DNA of 64,000 nucleotides, from contig NZ_BMMD01000008.1 of NCBI RefSeq assembly GCF_014645655.1, positions 1-64,000 of the forward strand. The letters run 5' to 3'. Under the pieces are notes generated by a model that made no database searches, was not told the origin of the DNA, and saw only the letters and a program-made list of their open reading frames with translations. This DNA is from Agromyces bauzanensis. Its GTDB lineage: Bacteria; Actinomycetota; Actinomycetes; Actinomycetales; Microbacteriaceae. Position 1 is the first letter of the stretch. The number at the start of each line of letters is the position of its first letter. Of this stretch, positions 892-22,120 are shown piece by piece. The position numbers were made by a program, and so were the translations under genes.

Positions 892-3258
892 GTGCAGCTC
901 GGGAACTTCCCGGGTATTCGAACTCTTCAGAAGGGCGTGGGCAGTCGCTACGCGCTGCCAGTTGGGCGCGGCACCTTGCGAATCGCGAAGGAAGTGCTTC
1001 AGCAAACCAGCAGGGGCGACGCAGTGTTGACCGACACGCAGTACGTCATTGCGGAGCAGATGCGCGGCGCCGACTTCTTCAGCTTTTCGGGTCCGACCTC
1101 GCTCGGGAAGTCCTTCATCATCAAGGACGCGTTGTACGACATCGTGCGACGCGACGATCTGAATGATCACTGTGTCGTGGTCCTCGTGCCGACTAAAGCC
1201 CTCATCGGTCAAACCGCTACCGACCTTCGCGAACTCCTCGAGGAGGTTCCCGAGGTCAACGTCGCAACGTATCCCTCACTTCCACGCTTGCTGCGGCGCC
1301 GCTATCGACGCACGATCTTCGTGCTCACCCCTGAACGCCTCCTTCGCTACTTGGCCAACCCTGTCCGTGAGATCGACTACCTCGTCGTCGATGAGGCACA
1401 GAAGATCATCGCCAAGAACGATGCACGCAGCTCGCTCTATTACCACGCGATCGTCGAAGCTACTCGGCGGTTCGCGACGAAGCTCGTATTCGCTTCTCCA
1501 AGCATCGTGAACCCGGAACTGTTCCTCGAGCTCTTCGGGAAGGCAACCAACGGGGCTCTCACCGTGAAGGAGCGCACTGTCGCGCAGCAGCGGTATTTCG
1601 TTGACCTGGTGGCGCGCAAGCAGTACTACTTCTCGGGACTCGACCAAGAACCGGTGGCGATAGATGCGGCAACTGAAACCTCGGACGTCGTGGACCTTGT
1701 GCTCAGCAGGAGTGGCGACCGCAAGGGCATCATCTATGTCAACGGCTCCGAGAAGTCCGCGGCATTTGCACTCCGCCTCGCAGCGAAGCTCCCGGCGATC
1801 AGCGACCCGAAGATTGACGAATTGATCAAGCACGTGCAGGAGTACGTGCACAAGGATTACTTCCTCGCGCAGACGCTGAAGCACGGTGTGGCGTACCACC
1901 ACGGCAAGATGCCTCAAGACGTTCGCGAGCGCGTCGAGCGCGCATTCTCCGATCCCAACTCGCCGGTGCGCTTTGTCGTCTGTACCTCGACTCTGCTTGA
2001 AGGTGTGAACCTGCCGGCCAAGAACATCTTCGTGTTGAGTGACAAACACGGCAACAGCTCGTTTACCAAGATCGACTTCGAGAATCTTGCGGGTCGAGCT
2101 GGGCGCCTGACCTACGACTTCTCGGGCAATGTCATCTGTGTTCGCGAGGAGTCGAAGCGCTGGTCTGCTGCGTCCCAGGCTCTCATCCCAAGGGCGGAGC
2201 CCGCTCGAGCAGAGAGCTTCCTTGTAAAGCCGGCAAACAACCGGAAGAAGGAGTACACCGACATCGCGAGGGTGCTGCGCGGTGAGGCGCTGCCAGGGCC
2301 GGTTTCGACCGACCATCAACGGAGCGTCGAGCAGTACGCATCCATCTTGACCCTCCATCAGATCGATGATCAGCAAACCCCTCTTCGCAGCCACTTCCTC
2401 GACAAGGTCAAGGACGGGCGCGATCTGCTGCGAAAAGCCGCGACGCGAGTCGAGGTGCCAGCCGATGTCCTTCGCCGATCGCCGAACATCCTGCCTGAGT
2501 ACCAGGACAACGTCTGGCGTCAGCTCTCCACTGGCGTCGACGGCGCGCTCATCGCTGACGATGCCGACCTTGAGGATGTCGCGACCTTCCACGGGGCGCT
2601 TCGCAGGCTGAGCGCGCTCTACAGCTGGCGCACCACCGAATCGTCAGGTCGCGATCCACTCCTGCCGAAGAACACGACCGCGGAGGGGGCGGACCGCCGC
2701 CTCTATTACTGGGCACTGCTCATGCGAGGTTGGGTTCGCGGCGACCCGATCAGCCGTGTGATCTCGAGCGCGATCGCGTACTACGCCAACCGAGGTTCGA
2801 TCTCGTACCGCGACTACTCGCGCGAGGAGAGTCTTGTGGTCGAGCCGTTCAGCTCAAGGTCGCCGAAGCACGTCAACCTCGTCATCGAGTGGACCCTCAG
2901 AGACATCGAAGGCGGTCTGCGGTTCCTCATCATCGGTTACCTGCAGAACTTCTACGACATCAGCGTCGCTGCGGTTGGCCGCGAGAAGTCCGGGTTGAAT
3001 GTCGCTACGCTCGTCGAGTACGGCACTGCCGACCCCCGCGCAATCCAGCTACAAGAGGTGGGATTCAGCCGCGCGATCGCTACCGAGTTGCTCGCCGAGC
3101 ACGGATCTGGGCTCAGGTTCAGCACGAGCGGAGAGCTCGAGGACATCGACGAGCAGGCGATCCTCGCCTCGCCAAAGCTCTCGGATGAGGCACGTGAGGA
3201 AGTATCGAGCATCCTTCAGAAGGTGCTGCCGACGAACGCGTCACCAGCATCTCGCTGA
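892..3258 (+). CDS. Ski2-like superfamily 2 DEAD/DEAH-box helicase, 5'-truncated
   Basis: This is an SF2 nucleic-acid helicase of 788 residues from the first available start (GTG). Motif I is GPTSLGKS (residues 67-74), motif II is DEAQ (167-170), and the motif VI region NLAGRAGR (398-405) is of the Ski2/Mtr4/Hel308 type rather than the QRxGRxGR of DEAD proteins. The remaining 380 C-terminal residues match no domain I recognise. Coding sequence continues upstream without a start to the IS end at about 726, so the native protein was longer. Codon use is less G+C-rich than in the core genes, which fits an acquired island. Helicases of this class occur in defence loci (Hachiman HamB is one), but I see no DUF1837/HamA partner. 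It may be non-functional or expressed as an N-truncated form. Confidence 0.75.
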   Translation: MQLGNFPGIRTLQKGVGSRYALPVGRGTLRIAKEVLQQTSRGDAVLTDTQYVIAEQMRGADFFSFSGPTSLGKSFIIKDALYDIVRRDDLNDHCVVVLVPTKALIGQTATDLRELLEEVPEVNVATYPSLPRLLRRRYRRTIFVLTPERLLRYLANPVREIDYLVVDEAQKIIAKNDARSSLYYHAIVEATRRFATKLVFASPSIVNPELFLELFGKATNGALTVKERTVAQQRYFVDLVARKQYYFSGLDQEPVAIDAATETSDVVDLVLSRSGDRKGIIYVNGSEKSAAFALRLAAKLPAISDPKIDELIKHVQEYVHKDYFLAQTLKHGVAYHHGKMPQDVRERVERAFSDPNSPVRFVVCTSTLLEGVNLPAKNIFVLSDKHGNSSFTKIDFENLAGRAGRLTYDFSGNVICVREESKRWSAASQALIPRAEPARAESFLVKPANNRKKEYTDIARVLRGEALPGPVSTDHQRSVEQYASILTLHQIDDQQTPLRSHFLDKVKDGRDLLRKAATRVEVPADVLRRSPNILPEYQDNVWRQLSTGVDGALIADDADLEDVATFHGALRRLSALYSWRTTESSGRDPLLPKNTTAEGADRRLYYWALLMRGWVRGDPISRVISSAIAYYANRGSISYRDYSREESLVVEPFSSRSPKHVNLVIEWTLRDIEGGLRFLIIGYLQNFYDISVAAVGREKSGLNVATLVEYGTADPRAIQLQEVGFSRAIATELLAEHGSGLRFSTSGELEDIDEQAILASPKLSDEAREEVSSILQKVLPTNASPASR

Positions 3259-3604
3259 TCTCCCATGAGCGCCCGCCAATATCGGCGAGGGCTATCTTGA
3301 GCGAATTCGACCACTACGTTTTGTTCACCCACACACCCGGCAAGTACATGGGCATCCGTCGTCTCGGAGACGTTTGTCCCAACAGATGTGATCGACGAGG
3401 TGATCGCGGACGCACTCAACTTCATGGAGATGCTCTCGGCGCTCGAGAACGCCTTAGCCCTCTGCATACAACCCGACCAGTCAACGCCCCGGGACGCTCC
3501 GGCGCGGCTCACAGCGAGCCGGACAAGGATGGTTAGAAGTCACCGCGACACGCCGAGAGTAAAACTGACCGCGCTACCTACTGAGTCTCGTGTACCTTGG
3601 TCAC
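3259..3604. other. Gap with a possible decayed small gene; no intact CDS
   Basis: No intact gene is convincing in these 346 bases. A TTG-initiated frame from 3297 reads MSEFDHYVLFTHTPGKYMG, then loses coding character. The adjacent +1 frame, from about 3350 to 3470, reads plausibly (VIDEVIADALNFMEMLSAL). The pattern would fit a small gene broken by one frameshift. The last 60 bases must hold the promoter and start region of the next operon. Confidence 0.3.
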
Positions 3605-4402
3605 ATGACTGCAGAAGACGACGCACTCTCGAGCCTCCAGGCTTCGGGCCTGCTCAATGTCCTGACCTGGGCGGCGCCCGCGGCATTCGCAGCGACGGAT
3701 CAGCTGTACGACGAGGACCAGGGCCACGATCAGGGTGTCGTCGGGTACCTGAACTTCAAGCACCTCAAGGACCTCATCGACCGGGCGACCTCGAACGGTC
3801 GGTTCGTGCTGGGTCAGGACGTCGACGGCACTGGCGATGATGTCGTCAAGCGCGGCGTCACGCCTGAAGTGTTCAACGCGATGCCGAGTCTCGCTGCCGA
3901 TGCGATTTTCCGCAGCGACTACAAGCAATCTCCAGGCTGGGCTATCGAGGGCTTCCGGGTGCTGCTGCAGTCGTTCCCGTTCGGCAAGATCGACGACATC
4001 AAGTGGGTGCAGCGCAGCGACGCGAAGCGCCGGGTCGCATCTCAGCTGTTCGTCCGCGACTACGCGCTCTTTGACGACGAGGAGTTCGGGCTCGAGTCGA
4101 TAGCGGGCATCCCTGATGACGATGACTTCGCCGGAGTGACTCTGGTCGTGGCGCATGCCTTCAACCCGACGACGAAGCAGTTCGAGCTGTACATCGGGCA
4201 GAGCAAGAATCCCGAGTACCCGGGGGACTCGTGCTGGCACTGGCGGCGACTCCTCCTTTCGGATGGCACGCCGCTCGGCGTTGCGGGCATATCTGTCCCG
4301 CCGACTATGCCCGGCGATGGCGTCACGACCGATGTCGAGGATGTGCCGGTGCGCATCAAGAAGCCGCGCACGGACGAGGGGTTGGGCTCGGCGAATGGCT
4401 GA
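3605..4402 (+). CDS. Uncharacterised 265-aa protein, first gene of candidate defence operon
   Basis: I do not recognise this protein. It has no signal peptide, transmembrane segment or obvious catalytic motif. It is acidic, with a DDDD run and a hydrophilic C-terminal tail. ATG 3605 is preferred over the GTG at 3590 because the extra residues look random. Its stop overlaps the start of the HTH/ImmA gene by 8 bp (ATGGCTGA), so the two are probably translationally coupled. Genes directly upstream of XRE-ImmA/IrrE regulators are often the target or partner of the peptidase. A role as phage sensor, protease substrate or effector is possible, but this rests on position only. Confidence 0.6.
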   Translation: MTAEDDALSSLQASGLLNVLTWAAPAAFAATDQLYDEDQGHDQGVVGYLNFKHLKDLIDRATSNGRFVLGQDVDGTGDDVVKRGVTPEVFNAMPSLAADAIFRSDYKQSPGWAIEGFRVLLQSFPFGKIDDIKWVQRSDAKRRVASQLFVRDYALFDDEEFGLESIAGIPDDDDFAGVTLVVAHAFNPTTKQFELYIGQSKNPEYPGDSCWHWRRLLLSDGTPLGVAGISVPPTMPGDGVTTDVEDVPVRIKKPRTDEGLGSANG

Positions 4403-5501
4403 ACTGCGTCGGCCGTCGCAGACGCTCGCCGCCGCAGCTTCGTTCTTCAACGGTGAGCGCCTCACCATGGCGCGCCAGCTCAAGGGGCTAAAAAAGTCCC
4501 ACCTTGCATCGCTGATCGAGATGTCACCAGCTTCGGTGACCGCGTGGGAGAGCGGCGCCAAGCAACCCAACCGAGCGACGGTAGCGAAGCTCGCGTTGGC
4601 GCTTCGCGTCGAGCCGCAGTTCTTTGGTGGCGGTGCTCCGCCAAAGGTCAACAAGCCGCACTTCCGGTCGCTGCGCTCAACACCACAGATCGCCCAGGAC
4701 GAGGCAGAGGCATACGGCCGGTTTGTCGCTGAGATCGCGGGCATGCTGGAGAACGCGGTCGAGTTCCCGGAGGCGCTGCTGCCCGACCTTCCAGTCGATC
4801 CTGATGAGCGCTCGATGACTCCTGAGGAGGCCGCTCGCGAAGCCCGGGAGTTTTTTCGCGTTCCGCCGGGGCCGGTCCAGCACGTGATACGCCTCGTCGA
4901 GCGCAGGGGTGTCGTCGTGGTGTTCAGCGAGCCCGGTGTGGCGGCGATCGACGCTTACTCTCTGCAGTCCTCGACGAGGCCGATCATCATCCTCAACCCG
5001 GTGAAGGATGACTATTATCGGCAGCGGTTCGATGTCGCGCACGAGCTCGGACACCTGATCATGCATCACGACGCGGAGCCCGGCGGCAAGGTCGCGGAGG
5101 AGCAGGCCAACCGGTTCGCGTCGGAGTTCCTGATGCCGGCCGAAGAGATCGCGCCTTTCCTTCCCGCCTCCACCGCAGGCAAGGCGTGGGCGCAGCTTGC
5201 GGACCTCAAGGAGCACTGGGGTGTGAGCCTCGCAGCACTTCTCTACCGTGCGCGCGCGCTCGGCGTCATGGGTGACGTGTCCTATCGGAACGCGATGATC
5301 CGAATGTCTCAGAACGGGTGGCGCCGCGCTGAGCCTGGGAGGATCTCGTCGCTCGAGATGCCGTCATTGCTTCCGCGCGCGCGTGAGGTACTGAGTGAGG
5401 CAGGCGTCGACGAGGAGACGTTCCTCGCCGGCTCCGGCCTACCCGTCGGGCTCTACGAGATTGCCGCATCACGGGTGCCCACTGCCGGAGTGCAGCTGTG
5501 A
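4395..5501 (+). CDS. XRE-family HTH plus ImmA/IrrE zinc metallopeptidase
   Basis: This 368-aa regulator has two parts. An N-terminal XRE-type helix-turn-helix (about residues 19-77, with SPASVTAWESGAKQPNRATV) precedes an ImmA/IrrE (DUF955) domain with the zinc site HELGH at 216-220 and the downstream glutamate segment EEQANRFASEFLMP (235-248). In this family the peptidase cleaves repressors after a stress or mobile-element signal, as ImmA does for ICEBs1 and IrrE/PprI for DdrO. ATG 4395 was chosen because it overlaps the previous stop and places the HTH at the N-terminus; the longer open frame upstream overlaps the 265-aa gene and is not protein-like. The stop overlaps the next gene's GTG by 4 bp. 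It probably controls the operon. Confidence 0.88.
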   Translation: MAELRRPSQTLAAAASFFNGERLTMARQLKGLKKSHLASLIEMSPASVTAWESGAKQPNRATVAKLALALRVEPQFFGGGAPPKVNKPHFRSLRSTPQIAQDEAEAYGRFVAEIAGMLENAVEFPEALLPDLPVDPDERSMTPEEAAREAREFFRVPPGPVQHVIRLVERRGVVVVFSEPGVAAIDAYSLQSSTRPIIILNPVKDDYYRQRFDVAHELGHLIMHHDAEPGGKVAEEQANRFASEFLMPAEEIAPFLPASTAGKAWAQLADLKEHWGVSLAALLYRARALGVMGDVSYRNAMIRMSQNGWRRAEPGRISSLEMPSLLPRAREVLSEAGVDEETFLAGSGLPVGLYEIAASRVPTAGVQL

Positions 5502-6961
5502 GGTTCACGGAGGCGTTCAATATCGAACGCGCCGCCGCCGACGACTGGTTCGATCCGCACCTGACGGTCGACACCAAGCTGTTCATCGACCCGCTCCTTC
5601 TACTCGAAGCGGGCGGCGCCTGGGCTCAGGCACACCACGAGCTAGTCGCGCATTTCGTGCACTGCTACGGCCTCGTCGCGAAGGCAACAAGCTCGACCTC
5701 GGTGTCTGCGCAGGCCGCGCGTCGACTTCTGACATTTCCGGAGCCGTTCGAGCTGGGACTTGGCTACACCGCTGTCGGGACGCGCGGGTCGGGGGCCGGC
5801 GACCGCTTCGCCGCGCGGATGGCCGACGGTATCGCGGTCGCGATCGCGGCCGGGCTGACCCAGCCGGAGCACATCGAGGAGATCGGCATCCTGAACGAAG
5901 GCATCGGTGCCGACCGGATCTCGGACGCGACCGCGAACGTCATCAAGGCACAGCTCATTTCTTACACGCAGGAAGTTGCCAGGCGGCACAGCGTGCCGTT
6001 GGCGCCGCACAAAGTTCGTCACGCGCGTGTCTCGCTCGACGCTGCGAGGTGGCACGACGACGAGGTTGAGCTCCCGACGAACCCAGTCACGGGGCGTCCC
6101 ATCATCTTGGTGCCGGAATTCATTCTCGGTGGGCTTCCAACACTCAACGCCGACGACTGGTTCGACTCGCACTTCAACGACGACATCCGTCTCTCGCTCA
6201 ACCTCAAGGTCGGACAAGCGGTGTCTAAAGCGAGCATCGTCTCGTTCGCGCGCCAGCACCCCGAGCGGGTTCGCGAGTGGGCGCGTGCTCAAACGAGCCG
6301 CAAGGATCTCATGGGCTACGACTTCGGCGCGGACCCGCTCGGGGTCGTCCAGTGGGATCGTGAGCCCGCACGCTTCGCGGTAGCGCACCCGTTACCGACG
6401 CGTGTTGTAGCAACCACTGAGGACCTGGTCGGACTCGTCGCGGAGGTCGTCGATCGCTTCCGACACTTCGTAGAGGAGCAGCGTGGCTGGAGTCTGCTCT
6501 GGAACGACGACCGAACGGAGAAGCCCGAGGAAGCCATCCAGCTCCTCCTGCTGGGGCTCGCGCAGCCGTACCTTCGACAGTTCGACGTCGAGCTTGACCG
6601 CGAAGTGGAGCTCGGTCGCGGATCCGTCGACTTCAAGGCATCCTCCGGGACGTCCTCGCGGCTGCTCATCGAAGTCAAGAAGCTCCACAACGGCAAGTTC
6701 TGGAACGGCGTGCGCCACCAGCTCCTGAGCTACTTGAAGTCTGACCGAGCCACCGAAGGCTGGTTCATCGCTGTGCAGTACCGCAGCAACCGCGGTGCGG
6801 TCGCGCGGCTGAAGTCCCTTCCGGCGGAGGTAGCGGCGGTGGCGAGCACGGTGGGGGCAGCGTTGCACTACTCGACGGTGGACGCCCGTCGTCCCTTGTC
6901 GGCCTCGAAGATCGAGGACGATAAGTCGACGAAGACGACGGACACGGGAGATCGACCATGA
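5498..6961 (+). CDS. Large protein with C-terminal PD-(D/E)XK nuclease domain
   Basis: The protein has 487 residues and starts with GTG overlapping the previous stop (GTGA). The first 340 or so residues match nothing I know. The C-terminal part carries a restriction-endonuclease-like core: VELGRGSVDF with Asp378, a strand LLIEVKK with Glu392 and Lys394, then a helix HQLLSYLKSD. This D-(E-x-K) spacing is typical of PD-(D/E)XK nucleases. No methyltransferase lies nearby, so it is not an ordinary restriction-modification enzyme. The unknown N-terminal part may be a sensor or regulatory domain. It sits between a metallopeptidase regulator and a HEPN RNase in one transcription unit. Nuclease assignment is by motif; cleavage target is unknown. 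Confidence 0.7.
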   Translation: MRFTEAFNIERAAADDWFDPHLTVDTKLFIDPLLLLEAGGAWAQAHHELVAHFVHCYGLVAKATSSTSVSAQAARRLLTFPEPFELGLGYTAVGTRGSGAGDRFAARMADGIAVAIAAGLTQPEHIEEIGILNEGIGADRISDATANVIKAQLISYTQEVARRHSVPLAPHKVRHARVSLDAARWHDDEVELPTNPVTGRPIILVPEFILGGLPTLNADDWFDSHFNDDIRLSLNLKVGQAVSKASIVSFARQHPERVREWARAQTSRKDLMGYDFGADPLGVVQWDREPARFAVAHPLPTRVVATTEDLVGLVAEVVDRFRHFVEEQRGWSLLWNDDRTEKPEEAIQLLLLGLAQPYLRQFDVELDREVELGRGSVDFKASSGTSSRLLIEVKKLHNGKFWNGVRHQLLSYLKSDRATEGWFIAVQYRSNRGAVARLKSLPAEVAAVASTVGAALHYSTVDARRPLSASKIEDDKSTKTTDTGDRP

Positions 6962-8133
6962 GCAGCCTGAGCGTGGCTGACAAGGTGTTGCTCGAAGCGG
7001 TACTCGGCATGTCTGGCGGCTACGTGCTCGACTTCAGCAACGACTCGTTCGCCGAGTTCTTCCACGATCTGAACATCGACGTCTACGACACCGAGCGGTA
7101 TCCGGGGTTTGGCGATTCGAAGGCCAATCGCCTTCGCGCACTGTGGCGAGGCGGCACCGATGAGGAAGTAGCGACCTCGCTGCGCGCGCTCATCGACTAC
7201 ATCGAGGCGAAGCGGCTGACCGGGTTCCTGAGTTACGAGGTCAACGACGCAAGCATGGAGCGAGTGCGCGCTGTGGCCGAACGCCTGGCGGGCGCGCACC
7301 AAGTAGACGACCAGGTGCCCACGGCGGTGAGCTTCACGACAGAAGCGACCGTCACAGAAAACAAGATCCAGATCGAGATCCACGAGGACATCTACGCCCA
7401 CATCAAGCGTTACCTTGCGACCGAGGACTACTTCCACGCTGTCGAGGAGTCATACAAAGTGGTGCGAGAAGCGCTCCGCGAGAAGACCGGCAGCGAGAAG
7501 GCCACGGACGCATTCAAGCCCGAGAATCAGCCGGCCATCTTCGGGCACGCGCCGGCGAGTCTCGCTGAAAAGGACTTCTTCGAGGGCGTGAAGTACCTGA
7601 ACATGGCCATCCAGTTCCTTCGCAACGAAAAGTCGCACACGCTGGCGACGTCGCTCGAGCGCAATCTCGCGCTTCACTACATCTCGCTTGCGAGTCTTGC
7701 CTACGACCTGATCACCCGGTACGTCAGCGATGAGCTGATCGAGAAGGTCGAGGACCTCATCACCAAGGAACGACAGTCGTACTCCGCTACGCGTTTCTAC
7801 CGCGTGTTCGATGGCGGGCGGTGGATTGCCAGCGTGACGCTTCCCGACGAACTCTCCTCGCCGTCAGTGCGACGAGTCCTCAAGGAGAAGTGGCTCAAGG
7901 AGGCCGACTTCACGCGGAGCTTTGACCAGAGCAACATTGTGCTGATGCGACTCGAACTTGTGGCGGACGCGCTGAGCATGGCCGATATCGATACGTTGCT
8001 CGACCTGCCTACCGTCGACAGCAATGGGTACAGCCAAGAGGCGGGCACGGTCTCCTTCCTCGAGTACATGAAGGACAAGTACCCGGAAACGATCTCTCCC
8101 AAGGCCGAGGAGCGGATCGCAGCCGACCAATAA
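6958..8133 (+). CDS. AbiJ-like protein with HEPN (TIGR02391-type) RNase motif
   Basis: The protein has 391 residues, with ATG overlapping the previous stop (ATGA). Residues 1-85 resemble AbiJ N-terminal domains (SKANRLRALW after a hydrophobic FAEFFHDL stretch). Residues 139-255 resemble the TIGR02391/Ymh HEPN family (IEIHEDIYAHIKRYL, AVEESYKVVREALREKTG) and include the motif RNEKSH, giving Arg222 and His227 in the R-x4-6-H spacing of HEPN ribonucleases. About 130 further residues follow with no recognised domain. AbiJ-type proteins act in abortive infection by cutting RNA. As last gene of the four-gene unit it is the probable toxic effector. Family calls are from recognised motifs, not a search. 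Confidence 0.75.
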   Translation: MSSLSVADKVLLEAVLGMSGGYVLDFSNDSFAEFFHDLNIDVYDTERYPGFGDSKANRLRALWRGGTDEEVATSLRALIDYIEAKRLTGFLSYEVNDASMERVRAVAERLAGAHQVDDQVPTAVSFTTEATVTENKIQIEIHEDIYAHIKRYLATEDYFHAVEESYKVVREALREKTGSEKATDAFKPENQPAIFGHAPASLAEKDFFEGVKYLNMAIQFLRNEKSHTLATSLERNLALHYISLASLAYDLITRYVSDELIEKVEDLITKERQSYSATRFYRVFDGGRWIASVTLPDELSSPSVRRVLKEKWLKEADFTRSFDQSNIVLMRLELVADALSMADIDTLLDLPTVDSNGYSQEAGTVSFLEYMKDKYPETISPKAEERIAADQ

Positions 8134-8204: not shown

Positions 8205-8693
8205 CTAGGACTTCTTGCGCGGTGCTTTCGCGCGCATCTCAATGCCGAGGCGTTGCATTGCTCGCATGACTGCGCCGTGAGATAGGTCGTACTTCTTCTC
8301 CAACTCTCGAATCGTAAGGCCGGCTATATAGTCGTCTGCCATGCGAAGGGACTCGGCGTCGGTCACGCGACGCTTCGTCACGACGACCTGGTTTTTGCGC
8401 AGAAGGTTGACCACGGCAGACACGGCGACGCCGTGCTTCGTCGCGATGCTGCGGGCACTCTCGCCGGCTTGATATGCCTGGACGATCTGTTCGACCTTCT
8501 GAGGCCCCAGTCGCTTGGATAGTGCGTGTGGTTGGTAGCTCGAACCTTTCGGCGGCTCGGCTTCCGCCGGAACCCCGCTTGCGAGTTCTCGCAGCTGATC
8601 TGGGGTAAAACCGGTTATGCCATGGTTTGAACAGATGTCAATAAGGTCAGCAAGTGTGACACCCTGAAACCCCCGGATTGTCGGGGGTTTCAT
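8205..8693 (-). CDS. Small HTH DNA-binding protein (resolvase-tail-like)
   Basis: This 162-aa protein has two helix-turn-helix-like segments: one near residues 75-105 (KVEQIVQAYQAGESARSIA), as in Hin/resolvase C-termini, and a second near 125-150 (IRELEKKYDLSHGAVMRAM). It has no recombinase catalytic domain. The ATG at 8693 lies at the foot of an 11-bp perfect hairpin, so its first codons (MKPPTIRGFQ) are part of that stem. It runs towards the end of the defence operon and away from the integrase module. It may be a repressor for the element, or a transposase/recombinase fragment. Confidence 0.6.
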   Translation of the reverse strand: MKPPTIRGFQGVTLADLIDICSNHGITGFTPDQLRELASGVPAEAEPPKGSSYQPHALSKRLGPQKVEQIVQAYQAGESARSIATKHGVAVSAVVNLLRKNQVVVTKRRVTDAESLRMADDYIAGLTIRELEKKYDLSHGAVMRAMQRLGIEMRAKAPRKKS

Positions 8694-8853
8694 GCATCTG
8701 GAGCCCTGCGGGAAGCAGAGGCTCCCGGTGGCTCTCCAAGCCCAAAGTCCCGTTTTCAGTCCCGTAAACCCCCTCCGGCGGGGCTTGCCCCAGAGGGTGC
8801 CCGTACCGCCACGGCTGAGCCCGTGCTGGCGGCAGCGACACCGTGCAGCCGTG
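8665..8853. repeat. Structured intergenic region with four inverted repeats and a direct repeat
   Basis: Four stems lie in 189 bases between the divergent HTH and xis genes. They are 8665-8675/8682-8692 (11 bp, loop gattgt), 8700-8709/8715-8725 (10 bp with one bulge), 8771-8775 with 8793-8797 enclosing a GGGGC-tt-GCCCC stem, and 8810-8817/8846-8853 (8 bp). The direct repeat AGTCCCGT occurs at 8746 and 8759. Its place next to xis/int suggests integrase arm sites, an attachment region, an operator or an insulating terminator. The function is inferred. Confidence 0.55.
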
Positions 8854-8868
8854 TCGTACCTGTTGGGT

Positions 8869-9069
8869 ATGAGCGACGGCACCACGGAACTCCTCACCGA
8901 GATCCTGACCCCCGAGCAGGTCGCCGCCATGCTCCAGGTGTCGCCGCGCACGGTGGAGGAATGGCGACGCAGCCGCACCGGCCCGCCGTGGCGTCGGATG
9001 GGTCGGCACGTCCGCTACCTGCGCCGCGAGGTGCTGGTCTGGTTCGAGGACCTCGACAGCGATGACTAG
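8869..9069 (+). CDS. Excisionase-like HTH protein
   Basis: This 66-aa protein has a winged-helix/MerR-type HTH of the helix-turn-helix domain 17 family: LTPEQVAAMLQVSPRTVEEW followed by the wing GPPWRRMGRHVRYLRREV. It overlaps the integrase start by 8 bp, a layout typical of xis-int pairs in actinobacterial integrative elements. ATG 8869 is chosen because everything upstream in the open frame runs through the structured region. It probably steers the integrase toward excision and may also repress its promoter. Confidence 0.8.
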   Translation: MSDGTTELLTEILTPEQVAAMLQVSPRTVEEWRRSRTGPPWRRMGRHVRYLRREVLVWFEDLDSDD

Positions 9070-10246
9070 GCCGAAGCTGCGCGCCGGACAACTCGGCGCG
9101 ATTCAGACCATCGAACTGCCCAGCGGCCGGTTCCAGGCCCGCGCACTCCTGGCCGACGAACTCGGCAAGACGCAGCGGGTGAAGGCCAGCGGCGAGACCG
9201 AGGACGAGGCCACGGCTGCGTTGCGCGCGAAGGCGGAGGCGATCCGCACCGCGACGGGCGGGCCGACGATCAGCCCGGACTCGACCATCGCCCAGGCGTG
9301 CATCGTGTTCCTGCACGACAAGACGCACTCCGGCACCGTCGAGGACTCCACGCTCGACGTCTACGAGGCGACCATCCGCAACGTCATCGTGCCGACCTGC
9401 GGAGAGTTGATGCTGCGCGACTTCACCGTGCGGCGCTGCAACCGCATCCTCGCGGACATCCTGGAAAGCCGCTCCCTGTCGGCTGCGCGCAAGGCGCGGT
9501 CGGTGCTGTCGCAGGTGTGCCTGACGGGCATCGAGTACGACGTGCTCGTCTCGAATCCGGTGCGGGACGCTCGGCGGCTGCCTCTACCCGAGAAGAAGAC
9601 CTCGGTGCTCACCCCGGAGCAGCTCCTCGTCGTGCAGCGCCTCATCCACGCCTGGCGGCTCGAAGACAGGCGCGGGCCGCGGCCCAACGTCACGGCGCTG
9701 GAGAACGGGATGTGGATCATGGTCGGCACCAGCCAGCGCATCGGCGAAGTGCTCGCGCTGCGCCGCTGCGACGTGGACATCACCGCGAACCCGCCGACGG
9801 CACTCGTGGACTCGACGATCCAGTACAGCAAAATGGGGGGCAGCAAGCGCAAGCCCGCCCCCAAGCGCACGAGGCAGAAGCGCCGCATCGCCCTGCCGAG
9901 CTTCGCCGCCGCCGCGATTCGCAGCCAGCTCGCTCATGCCGGCACCGAGGCGGAGGCATCCCTGTTCGCCACGAAGACCGGCAAGCCGATGACCGTCAGC
10001 AACTTCGAGCGGCTGCTGCGCACCTTCGTGGACGACAACGAGCAGGCGTTGCGCGCAGCGGGGATCGACACGGACGAGTTCTCGACGCACATCTTCCGCC
10101 GCACCGCCTCGACCATCTTGGAAGCCGCCGCGGGCATCACCATCGCCTCCCGGCTGCTCGGCCACGCCAGCGAGCAGGTCACCCGCAACAGCTACGTCGT
10201 CACCGCCGAGATGGTCGACCCCATCACGGCCGACATCATTGGATGA
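9062..10246 (+). CDS. int: Tyrosine-type site-specific integrase
   Basis: This 394-aa phage/ICE integrase has an N-terminal arm-binding part, a core-binding SAM-like domain (about 75-165) and a C-terminal catalytic domain. Visible catalytic elements are the first arginine in GTSQRIGEVLALR, the HxxR box in THIFRRTAS, LLGHAS, and the nucleophilic tyrosine in SYVVTAEM. It would catalyse integration and excision of the island through a covalent DNA-phosphotyrosine intermediate. It follows xis with an 8-bp overlap. The right island junction lies about 1.7 kb downstream, within the broken regulator gene. Confidence 0.93.
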   Translation: MTRPKLRAGQLGAIQTIELPSGRFQARALLADELGKTQRVKASGETEDEATAALRAKAEAIRTATGGPTISPDSTIAQACIVFLHDKTHSGTVEDSTLDVYEATIRNVIVPTCGELMLRDFTVRRCNRILADILESRSLSAARKARSVLSQVCLTGIEYDVLVSNPVRDARRLPLPEKKTSVLTPEQLLVVQRLIHAWRLEDRRGPRPNVTALENGMWIMVGTSQRIGEVLALRRCDVDITANPPTALVDSTIQYSKMGGSKRKPAPKRTRQKRRIALPSFAAAAIRSQLAHAGTEAEASLFATKTGKPMTVSNFERLLRTFVDDNEQALRAAGIDTDEFSTHIFRRTASTILEAAAGITIASRLLGHASEQVTRNSYVVTAEMVDPITADIIG

Positions 10247-10302: not shown

Positions 10303-10332
10303 TTGTCCAGACTGTGCATTTGGCGGTACGAT
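10303..10332 (+). promoter_or_regulatory. Candidate leaderless promoter for the toxin-antitoxin pair
   Basis: A TTGTCC (10303-10308) and a TACGAT (10327-10332) are separated by 18 bp. The antitoxin ATG at 10339 lies where transcription would start, so the mRNA would be leaderless, which is common in actinobacteria. No Shine-Dalgarno sequence is visible. Confidence 0.4.
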
Positions 10333-10338
10333 GGAGTC

Positions 10339-10695
10339 ATGACGATGACGAGCTTGACGATCAACCCGGAGGACGTGCGTGCCAGCGCCGGGGCGCGCCC
10401 GGCGTGGCTGGAGCAGGTGGCCGCGTATGTGCAGCGGGCCGCGGCCGACGGGGAGGCGGTGACCCTCACGGCGAAGCGTCGCATGATGACGCCCGAGCAG
10501 GTCGCCGATGCGATGGGCGTATCGCGCCCGACTATCTCGCGGAAGATCAAGGCCGGGGAGATTCGCGCGGTCAAGGTCGGCAACCGCAACCGCATTCCCT
10601 ACGAGGAGTTCGAGCGGTACTGGCGCAAGACGATGGGCGACCTGGTGGAGCTGACGCGCGATGAGCTCCGCGACGACCTTTTCGGCGAGCAGTGA
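10339..10695 (+). CDS. HTH antitoxin (excisionase-type DNA-binding domain)
   Basis: This 118-aa protein has an N-terminal helical region and a winged-helix DNA-binding domain (TPEQVADAMGVSRPTISRKI, wing VGNRNRIPYEEFERYW), ending in an acidic tail. This architecture is the usual antitoxin partner of PIN toxins in actinobacteria. The stop is one base before the preferred toxin start, so the two genes are co-transcribed and probably coupled. The antitoxin should bind the toxin and repress their shared promoter. Confidence 0.78.
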   Translation: MTMTSLTINPEDVRASAGARPAWLEQVAAYVQRAAADGEAVTLTAKRRMMTPEQVADAMGVSRPTISRKIKAGEIRAVKVGNRNRIPYEEFERYWRKTMGDLVELTRDELRDDLFGEQ

Positions 10696-10696
10696 G

Positions 10697-11341
10697 GTGA
10701 CGCGCGTCTTCCTGGACGCGAACATCATCGCCAAGCCCGTCACCCGCACCCTCCTGGTCGTCGGGGGAGTGCCGAGCGGGTTCCGTGCGTTGTGGAGTCA
10801 GGCTGCGGAGCAGGAAGCCACGGTTCATATGCGCCCGAGGGCGCTGCCGCCGTCGACTGTCCGGGAGCGCTTCGGCGTGCTGCTCGCGCCATCGGGCCAG
10901 GGTGAGGAACGCTTTGGCGGAACGAAGGGCGCGGATCGGCAGATCCTCGCGGACGCCGCAGCCGCGGGCGCGCACTTCCTCATCACCGAGGACGTGGACG
11001 ACTCCGGACTGGACGACCTCGCCAGCGTCGGCATCTCGGCGGTGAACCCGGACCTGTTCCTTGCCGAGCGACTCACGCGCGATGCTTATTCGACGGTGAT
11101 CGACCTGTTCGTCGAGCGTCAGCTCAACCCGCCGACCACGCCCGCGCAGTTCCATGCCGCCATCGCCAAGCAGCACCCGCGCCTGTTCGCCGCGCACGCC
11201 GATCTCTACGGCATACCGCCCGAGCGGGGTGCGCATTCCGAGCCCGCGGTCATCTTCCGCGGCACGTGCTGCCTGCGCTGCGAGCGGATCGTCGCCGACC
11301 CGACTGCGATCATCGACGGGCTCGGCCCGGAGTGCCGCTGA
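10697..11341 (+). CDS. PIN-domain toxin with C-terminal zinc-ribbon-like tail
   Basis: The N-terminal 130 residues form a PIN-type ribonuclease fold: the first acidic residue is in MTRVFLDANIIAKP, and later acidic positions are in GADRQILADAAAAG and FLITEDVDD. GTG 10697 is preferred because it places the first PIN strand at the N-terminus; an upstream ATG at 10661 overlaps the antitoxin. The last 25 residues hold a CCLRC...GLGPEC pattern like the DUF6011 zinc ribbon, an addition not usual in PIN toxins. Cleavage targets are likely RNA; specificity is unknown. Confidence 0.75.
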   Translation: MTRVFLDANIIAKPVTRTLLVVGGVPSGFRALWSQAAEQEATVHMRPRALPPSTVRERFGVLLAPSGQGEERFGGTKGADRQILADAAAAGAHFLITEDVDDSGLDDLASVGISAVNPDLFLAERLTRDAYSTVIDLFVERQLNPPTTPAQFHAAIAKQHPRLFAAHADLYGIPPERGAHSEPAVIFRGTCCLRCERIVADPTAIIDGLGPECR

Positions 11342-11342
11342 G

Positions 11343-11903
11343 CTACAGCCTCGGCGCGTTGCTCGGCGGCGTGTGCGCGGGCGTTTCGGGGATGAACGGA
11401 GCTGTGGGCGCTCGCCCCGCGGTCTCCCGCGATCCCAGGTGGGGCTCGTAGGCGCGCACGGCGTCGATGGTCAGCTCGACCCGCTCTGACTCGGGCGCGG
11501 CGGGCTCGGGGCGGGGTTCGTCCTGCATCGCGGTGAGCTGGGATTCGACGCGGGCGAGGTCTTCCTCTGCGTCGGCGAGTGCCTGGGCGTGGCGGAAGGG
11601 CTGGCCGAGGCGCTGCTGGGTGTCGGTGACAGTCTGCTCGGCTTCCTCGAGGTCGGCGCGGGCCTGGTGGAGGAGCGACGGGATACCCGAGACGCGGTTC
11701 TCGATGCGCTGGACGAGCCCGAGCCCGGCTTCCAGGAATGACTCCTTGGGCATCGTGAACCCTGAGCGGGGCACCTCTGGGAGCGAGACGGTCACGTCGA
11801 GGGAGGTGAGCCCGGAGCGGGCTTCGATGTGGATGTCGAAGCCGGAGATGCGGCCGATGATCCCGAAGTCCTTGTTCCCGGACTGCCAACGCGCCGGACC
11901 AAC
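11343..11903 (-). pseudogene. 3' remnant of an ICE-type helicase/methylase gene
   Basis: The minus-strand frame is open from a stop at 11904-11906 down to 11343 but has no proper start. The text resembles the extreme C-terminus of the large SNF2-type helicase/DNA-methylase proteins of actinobacterial integrative elements: a short beta-rich part (DFGIIGRISGFDIHIEA), a conserved LVQRIENRVSGIPSLL segment, a coiled coil and a Pro-rich tail. The rest of the gene is missing at the island's right edge. The family assignment is from memory of such tails and is tentative. Confidence 0.45.
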
Positions 11904-11937
11904 CTAACCAAGTACTACTAGGCGGGTTCAGCGCCGG

Positions 11938-22047: not shown

Positions 22048-22120
22048 GGCCCCATCGTTTAGCGGCCTAGGACGCCGCCCTCTCACGGCGGTAGCGCGGG
22101 TTCAAATCCCGCTGGGGTCA
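22048..22120 (+). tRNA. tRNA-Glu (anticodon CTC)
   Basis: A complete 73-nt cloverleaf is visible. The acceptor stem ggcccca pairs with tggggtc, the anticodon stem ccgcc/ggcgg encloses the loop ctctcac, and the T arm is gcggg-ttcaaat-cccgc. The anticodon CTC occupies 22082-22084. The discriminator is A and CCA is not encoded, as is usual in actinobacteria. Confidence 0.97.

Follow-up and report, generated by a model that had tools for sequence, protein, structure and literature searches.

What kind of site packs four inverted repeats and a duplicated motif into 189 bp between two divergent genes? The question is raised by positions 8665-8853 of a 64,000-nt stretch of DNA (hereafter the window), which forms the opening 64 kb of contig C8 in the genome of Agromyces bauzanensis (3.7 Mb, 93 contigs). 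An earlier note had placed this array between an HTH gene and a xis gene, and the features it listed are all present where it had put them. They comprise a perfect 11-bp inverted repeat (8665-8675/8682-8692), three less perfect ones (8695-8705/8720-8730, 82% match; 8796-8811/8827-8842, 75%; 8807-8817/8846-8856, 91%), and two copies of AGTCCCGT, at 8746 and 8758, with a spacing of 12 bp.

The answer that we favor, and hold to be quite likely, is that the array lies at the seam of two mobile islands stacked at one tRNA gene, one of which has its attP inside its own large serine recombinase (LSR) gene and splits that gene on integration. The right part of the seam (8652-8868) reads as the arm region of a tyrosine-integrase element, called here element B, and the left part (8620-8651) as the putative attR of a second, defense-carrying island, called island A. 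A single regulatory switch, which had been offered as one possibility, gives way to this interpretation: 8665-8853 would not be one regulatory unit, and the 189 bp would instead be a place where two att regions abut.

Some of the folding potential of the array is clearly in excess of expectation. With DNA parameters, 8665-8853 folds to -47.8 kcal/mol, against -36.3 ± 3.5 kcal/mol for 200 shuffled versions (z -3.26; none of the 200 is as good). With RNA parameters the folding z is only -1.91. Perfect inverted repeats of at least 7 bp with loops of 3-40 number four in the 189 bp, against a shuffle mean of 0.70, and none of 200 shuffles reaches four. Among single hairpins, 8661-8697 (z -3.9) and 8695-8735 (z -3.2) stand above their shuffles; scored in the same way, 8766-8800 (z -0.2) and 8803-8860 (z -1.0) show no folding excess. 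The excess of the whole region is carried by two hairpins, 8665-8692 and 8700-8725. The first, with its 11-bp stem, is terminator-like, and comparable hairpins occupy the same place in three relatives of the downstream integrase (L117-L119) and are found beside relatives of the HTH frame; it presumably stood next to the 3' end of a tRNA-Gln before island A was inserted. The second is assigned to the left end of element B from its folding and a likeness, by eye, to L116. Among RNA families at gathering score, the sole match is a tRNA at 22048. One DNA match on contig C12 has a dissimilar context and was taken as chance, and a wider DNA search of the bacterium's own genome gave only weak matches (E of at least 0.28).

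The right part of the seam was compared among relatives of the integrase gene (int). The genus search covered 60 genomes, A. bauzanensis included. The 15 relatives considered here are two from the genus, L034 and L035 (the latter frameshifted), plus 13 non-self matches at E ≤ 1e-80 among 398 genomes of the family; many weaker matches were excluded from the counts. A tRNA-Gln(CTG) lies directly upstream of these genes, called by ARAGORN in 13 cases and retained only as its 3' part in the other two (L122, L125), and in all 15 int begins 370-388 bp past its 3' end. The corresponding distance in the window, counted from a core-like CAGC (8648-8651), is 410 bp, and the sequence preceding this core is not a tRNA. 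Viral contigs yielded no relatives of int, and genome_contigs yielded none of either int or the HTH frame.

A 12-bp direct repeat is found in 10 of the 15 relatives, 66-75 bp past the tRNA end and 298-316 bp before int, mostly with a sequence different from that in the window. The window's first copy, AGTCCCGTTTTC (8746-8757, plus strand), lies 316 bp ahead of int, and is followed by the second, AGTCCCGTAAAC (8758-8769, plus strand), and then by CCCC. Across the relatives and the window together, a lag of 12 has the highest mean repeat score among lags 9-30 (9.38 vs 6.25-8.00). These repeats are what arm-type sites that co-vary with their own integrase would look like. The repeat is missing from its expected place in five relatives, of which L125 has one elsewhere and L035, L123, L124, and L126 score at chance. 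The proposal that the array holds integrase arm sites or an attachment region is favored by the position and 12-bp period of the repeat in 10 of the 15 relatives and by the tRNA-Gln 3' end upstream of every one of the 15.

The stems fare less well than the repeat. Their conservation among relatives with the same int gene had been set beforehand as the test, and the result goes largely against it: a strong hairpin within the first 60 nt after the tRNA occurs only in L117-L119 (z -2.8 to -3.8), and no stem common to the 15 was seen. Structure as such is common at this place, the 189-nt region having an RNA z of -2.2 or lower in eight of the 15. It could be argued from the missing common stem and the modest RNA score that chance alone, in GC-rich intergenic DNA beside an integrase, produced the AGTCCCGT repeat and the stems, and the window's 12-bp repeat, on its own, is indeed within chance (p 0.076); it is convincing only because relatives show it. 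We nevertheless consider chance a poor explanation, given that the position and 12-bp period recur in those ten relatives and that the DNA fold beats every one of the shuffles.

Element B continues downstream from the putative arm sites with xis (8869-9069, plus strand, 66 aa; PHROG phrog_66, excisionase and transcriptional regulator, E 7e-11) and int (9062-10246, plus strand; Pfam Phage_integrase, 7.8e-14; phrog_1, 1e-45), such that a Phage_integrase domain occurs together with an excisionase gene. In its xis-int order, its 12-bp arm-like repeats, and the tRNA-Gln core of its relatives, the element is like other tyrosine integrase elements that target tRNA genes, but the tRNA core is no longer beside the arm region in the window. 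Next comes a probable toxin-antitoxin pair (10303-11341, plus strand), an HTH_17 gene and a probable PIN-like toxin; the latter is our own reading, and Pfam gives no match. A larger element gene follows, of which only the truncated 3' tail is present (11343-11886, minus strand). The chromosomes of three other genomes (G032, G033, G042) are homologous to the window from 11937 onward, and element B ends at about 11886. The interval 11886-11937 is a deletion junction between element remnant and chromosome, and a regulator gene that is longer in G032 and G033 seems, by eye, to lose its start there.

As the earlier note had advised, the two ends of the int element were searched for a duplicated att core, and none was found. 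The tRNA core is missing here, no tRNA-Gln core exists on C8 at up to two mismatches, and the far end is truncated at about 11886. One 14-base match on C8, at 108500, was taken as chance. Because C8 lacks the tRNA-Gln core and the far end is truncated, element B is a remnant.

Parts of this element have close copies elsewhere. Window positions 10310-11846 are 81% identical to C8:158522-160067, where a toxin-antitoxin-like pair and gene tail likewise come after an integrase, though a different one. The two copies sit at opposite ends of the same 160-kb contig, and the integrase of the second is located at a tRNA-Pro(TGG). The gene tail by itself (11335-11886) is 86% identical in G016.

On the other side of the array, the HTH gene (8205-8693, minus strand) looks like the cut-off C-terminus of an LSR. 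The severed part with its HTH domains would span 8205-8651, an assignment drawn from frame continuity with LSR genes, an unsplit open reading frame (ORF) in G515, dN/dS values, and Pfam HTH matches. The ORF extends past 8651 to an ATG at 8693 inside the first hairpin. The observation that a hairpin includes this ATG is correct to the extent that two of the three bases of the CAT at 8691-8693 are in the stem, but the ATG is probably not the native start. Relatives of the frame occur in 18 of the 398 family genomes at E ≤ 1e-8, A. bauzanensis included. When ten sequences including the window were checked, five of the nine relatives had no in-frame ATG, GTG, or TTG in the interval from the preceding stop to the conserved motif. 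The flanks suggest a reason for these missing start codons, since the C-terminal part of an LSR lies beyond, after a tRNA.

Should the frame instead be an independent island regulator, translated from the hairpin ATG under the control of the hairpin, then the in-frame ATG, the strength of the hairpin, the conservation of the frame, and the annotation of a homologue on a Microbacterium plasmid as a gene would all find an explanation. We regard this as improbable, because more than half of the relatives checked lack a start codon upstream of the motif, the frame is continuous with an LSR and joined to it in one unsplit ORF, and the ATG of the window is on the far side of the att core. The suggestion that folding controls translation of the HTH gene was likewise rejected, because the frame resembles the 3' portion of a gene that has been split. 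Another candidate, the HTH gene as the right end of a tyrosine-integrase element, was dropped, as HTH frames fit LSR frames and no such integrase was found in the stretches searched from eight relatives.

Several additional features characterize the orphan HTH frame. A terminator-like hairpin is visible by eye right at its 5' end in 12 of 14 loci, the window included (L141 and L142 are without), and in 4 of 12 more distant loci (L146, L148, L152, L069). For six homologue pairs with 57-71% protein identity, dN/dS is 0.10-0.38, from simple Nei-Gojobori estimates at high divergence (pS 0.51-0.75), which suggests purifying selection on the HTH part across the relatives. The G035 representative matches the resolvase domain HTH_7 (E 8.6e-12). 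The frame lies 5-16 kb downstream of tRNA-Gln(CTG) in G279, G042, G374, G067, and G108 and downstream of tRNA-Pro in G012; the first flanks taken for G035 and G030 contain no tRNA. Six weak phage matches, including Pseudomonas phages, and two plasmid matches (Microbacterium, Streptomyces) were found for the HTH part, the Microbacterium plasmid being the one inspected, and viral contigs gave no match to either the HTH or the LSR queries.

The integrases of phiC31 and A118 are large serine integrases, and the LSRs of island A relatives share with this class the Resolvase, Recombinase, and Zn-ribbon domains, but the island A LSR differs in its tRNA 3'-end target and in an attP predicted to lie inside the gene. 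In relatives, the LSR gene is at the other island end, antisense to tRNA-Gln or tRNA-Pro, one of which adjoins the left ends; ARAGORN did not call the tRNA at those of G244, G363, and G079. Just past tRNA-Gln, the C-terminal part of the LSR is on the minus strand and reads into the tRNA. No stop interrupts the frame across the att core at any of the 12 left ends read (A. bauzanensis, G279, G108, G042, G374, G067, G035, G428, G244, G363, G079, and G745). The N-part is intact at tRNA-Pro in G035 and G745, with Resolvase, Recombinase, and Zn ribbon, and the relatives L175 and L245 carry the same three (Zn_ribbon_recom). The LSR is reduced to a tail in G374, G067, and A. bauzanensis, and G067 retains only the last recognizable stretch. 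In the A. bauzanensis genome the zinc-ribbon region was not found, only the tail and the HTH part being matched.

The two parts fit together. In all nine genomes with a core at both ends, the HTH frame continues the LSR frame in the same phase to the core, with no stop between, where the right-end cores were chosen by eye and the cases, being homologous (the G279 and G108 ends are identical), are not nine independent trials. G244 and G067 carry both parts but have an HTH end without a core, and were left out of the nine; the LSR of G428 may not be the partner of its HTH part. From these comparisons, we conclude that two att regions very probably abut in the window and that island A has its recombinase gene divided into two pieces that share one frame. 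LSR frames of other subfamilies also run antisense into tRNA-Met, -Arg, -Pro, and -Ala (L178, L180, L181, L182, L184, L186); among these six, the opposite end was read for L181, which is in G428. Together with tRNA-Gln, this orientation holds at 8 of 8 loci with a tRNA, and an attP inside the recombinase gene may be common.

A query joining the G035 LSR tail and HTH part was searched against 396 genomes of the order for an unsplit form of the gene. In A. bauzanensis it gave two matches, the LSR tail at C1:301340-301597, beside tRNA-Gln, and the HTH part at C8:8217-8675; in G035 and G745 the halves are ~40 kb apart. Of five unsplit candidates checked, those in G729, G557, G553, and G604 did not hold up, leaving G515, in which LSR tail and HTH are in one 404-residue ORF. 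This ORF matches the PHROG integrase family phrog_95 at residues 79-222 (E 6e-10), at about residues 299-403 DNA-binding PHROGs that the window HTH also matches (for the ORF with modest E of 4e-6 to 6e-3), and Pfam HTH_58 (344-399) and HTH_38. The ORF lacks the catalytic half, and its LSR part shares 21% identity with the G035 one. A gene uniting catalytic domain and HTH was found in nothing that we searched, which is the chief gap in the case. As far as sequence can establish them, the island ends, the common frame, the unsplit LSR-tail/HTH ORF, and the arm-repeat architecture are firm.

The attR half-site assigned to island A, CCATGGTTTGAACAGATGTCAATAAGGTCAGC (8620-8651, with core CAGC at 8648-8651), is like the right ends of relatives' islands, and its partner half-site is beside tRNA-Gln on C1. 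The ungapped symmetry between the two is weak (13/25, p 0.085). Across nine genomes, half-site symmetry gives p 0.001-0.085 in six, below 0.05 in four of them, and 0.38-0.57 in G035, G079, and G428. To the left of the HTH frame, PADLOC and Pfam identify plus-strand defense genes: a HamB-like helicase of Hachiman (892-3258; E 2e-203), an RmrT/RmrA-like pair (3590-4402, 9e-8, and 4155-5501, 3.5e-104), a PDC-M36A-like gene (5498-6961; 2.9e-28), and Hypoth_Ymh (6958-8133). From their place, these genes at 892-8133 would belong to island A, which seems to run off the contig start. The island at tRNA-Gln in G374 has a Tmn-like gene (L166), and the islands of other relatives, by a look at the sequence, have type I restriction genes.

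The order in which the two islands arrived can be proposed from their arrangement. In relatives, tRNA-Gln, arm region, xis, and int are contiguous, and in the window the HTH end of island A replaces the tRNA. Because island A takes the place of the tRNA, the simplest history is that element B came first and that island A was then inserted between the tRNA and element B, and we presume this order. The ends on C1 and C8 are likely those of one island copy. The two halves are on separate scaffolds, with N gaps in C1 at 301680, 308184, and 308719. The stretch G000:C1:301680-308719 holds scaffold gaps and a duplicated insertion-sequence end right after tRNA-Gln; these gaps and the insertion-sequence end suggest that the assembly breaks inside island A. 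Synteny of the window's chromosomal part with tRNA-Gln was not supported when ten proteins were compared with 42 loci, mostly around tRNA-Gln or tRNA-Pro and with short flanks, the sole match being a generic ABC ATPase (32-37%; L203, L162).

Similar neighborhoods are seen by eye elsewhere. In G012 and G079, an HTH end and hairpin are followed by arm-like DNA of a tRNA-Pro integrase, although in G012 no integrase was found in the stretch examined. Plasmid A of Microbacterium sp. No. 7 has an HTH end, a hairpin, and arm-like DNA, plus xis and int. On this plasmid (L212; NZ_CP012698.1, 36404-38436), int, xis, and a tRNA-Pro-type HTH part are arranged as in the window; this HTH part is 68% identical to that of G030, and the 12.4-kb stretch is without a tRNA.

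These observations can be assembled into a proposed mechanism. Element B would integrate at tRNA-Gln(CTG), so that the tRNA is followed in turn by terminator-like hairpins, two 12-bp arm sites, xis, and int. The LSR-carried defense island A would then insert between the tRNA and element B, directly at the 3' end of the former. Within the recombinase gene, the attP of island A would come immediately before the part coding for the C-terminal HTH domains, and the intact LSR gene would work on the circle. After integration the catalytic N-part would be at attL, reading antisense into the tRNA, and attR would keep the HTH part as an orphan frame, the window's "HTH gene". The cut LSR could not excise the island, and integration would be one-way unless a full copy were supplied in trans. 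We think it fairly safe to say that integration splits the recombinase gene of island A. It may also be that the HTH part is required for recombination and that splitting thus locks the island until a complete copy arrives in trans, although for the claim that splitting abolishes LSR activity we see the chances as even.

Recombinases disrupted by their own integration have been described before. In the accessible part of a review (PMC8371274), the archaeal suicidal integrases of the SSV type (SSV1, pTN3, pT26-2) have an att site in the integrase gene, often within a tRNA, and integration yields N and C parts. That text calls self-disrupting recombinases exclusively archaeal and describes the SSV type as tyrosine recombinases (Phage_integr_3). 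Island A is similar in having an att site that appears to be inside the recombinase gene (nine of nine frames and one unsplit junction) and a tRNA target. However, the archaeal enzymes are tyrosine recombinases with a catalytic C part, whereas that of island A is a bacterial serine recombinase whose catalytic part would stay whole while the HTH is lost. Given the Resolvase, Recombinase, and Zn_ribbon_recom domains of the left-end gene in relatives, island A is no member of the SSV type and is only alike in its way of working.

A bacterial precedent, at least a partial one as far as the accessible text goes, is myxophage Mx8, whose attP is within the int coding sequence and whose integration gives int a new 3' end (PMC6070905). 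The likeness to island A is in being bacterial and in the position of attP, and the same partial text mentions no orphan domain at the other end. There, Int stays active after integration with its specificity modified (PMC6070905). By analogy, the attP of island A could be inside the gene while the C-terminal HTH is dispensable, with integration altering the C-terminus and perhaps the activity but not inactivating the enzyme. This is a possibility that we take seriously but rate as rather unlikely. Apart from the Mx8 case, it draws on the tRNA-antisense tail, which leaves the LSR frame open after integration, and on the finding that the LSR domains detected by Pfam are all in the N-part. The apparent purifying selection and the resolvase-type HTH argue instead for a role in the whole protein.

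In its accessible part, PMC12884075 describes integrase mining and does not mention split genes. Our literature search, which covered titles and the openings of abstracts in sources that were partly accessible, found no account of a serine recombinase whose gene is divided when its own element integrates, which is weak evidence of absence. Whether there are "suicidal" bacterial LSRs, with attP in the gene, in which loss of the HTH makes integration self-limiting and permits excision only in trans, and which are widespread in Microbacteriaceae and perhaps in related families, is a proposition that we judge to be evenly balanced.

The arrangement in the window illustrates how islands can pile up at one tRNA gene, insertion at the tRNA 3' end stranding the core and arm sites of the older element. 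If the proposed mechanism is true, it would explain orphan HTH frames at island ends, reveal a simple route to one-way island integration, and offer naturally split serine integrases for engineering. Self-splitting integrases would then be neither an archaeal specialty nor limited to tyrosine recombinases.
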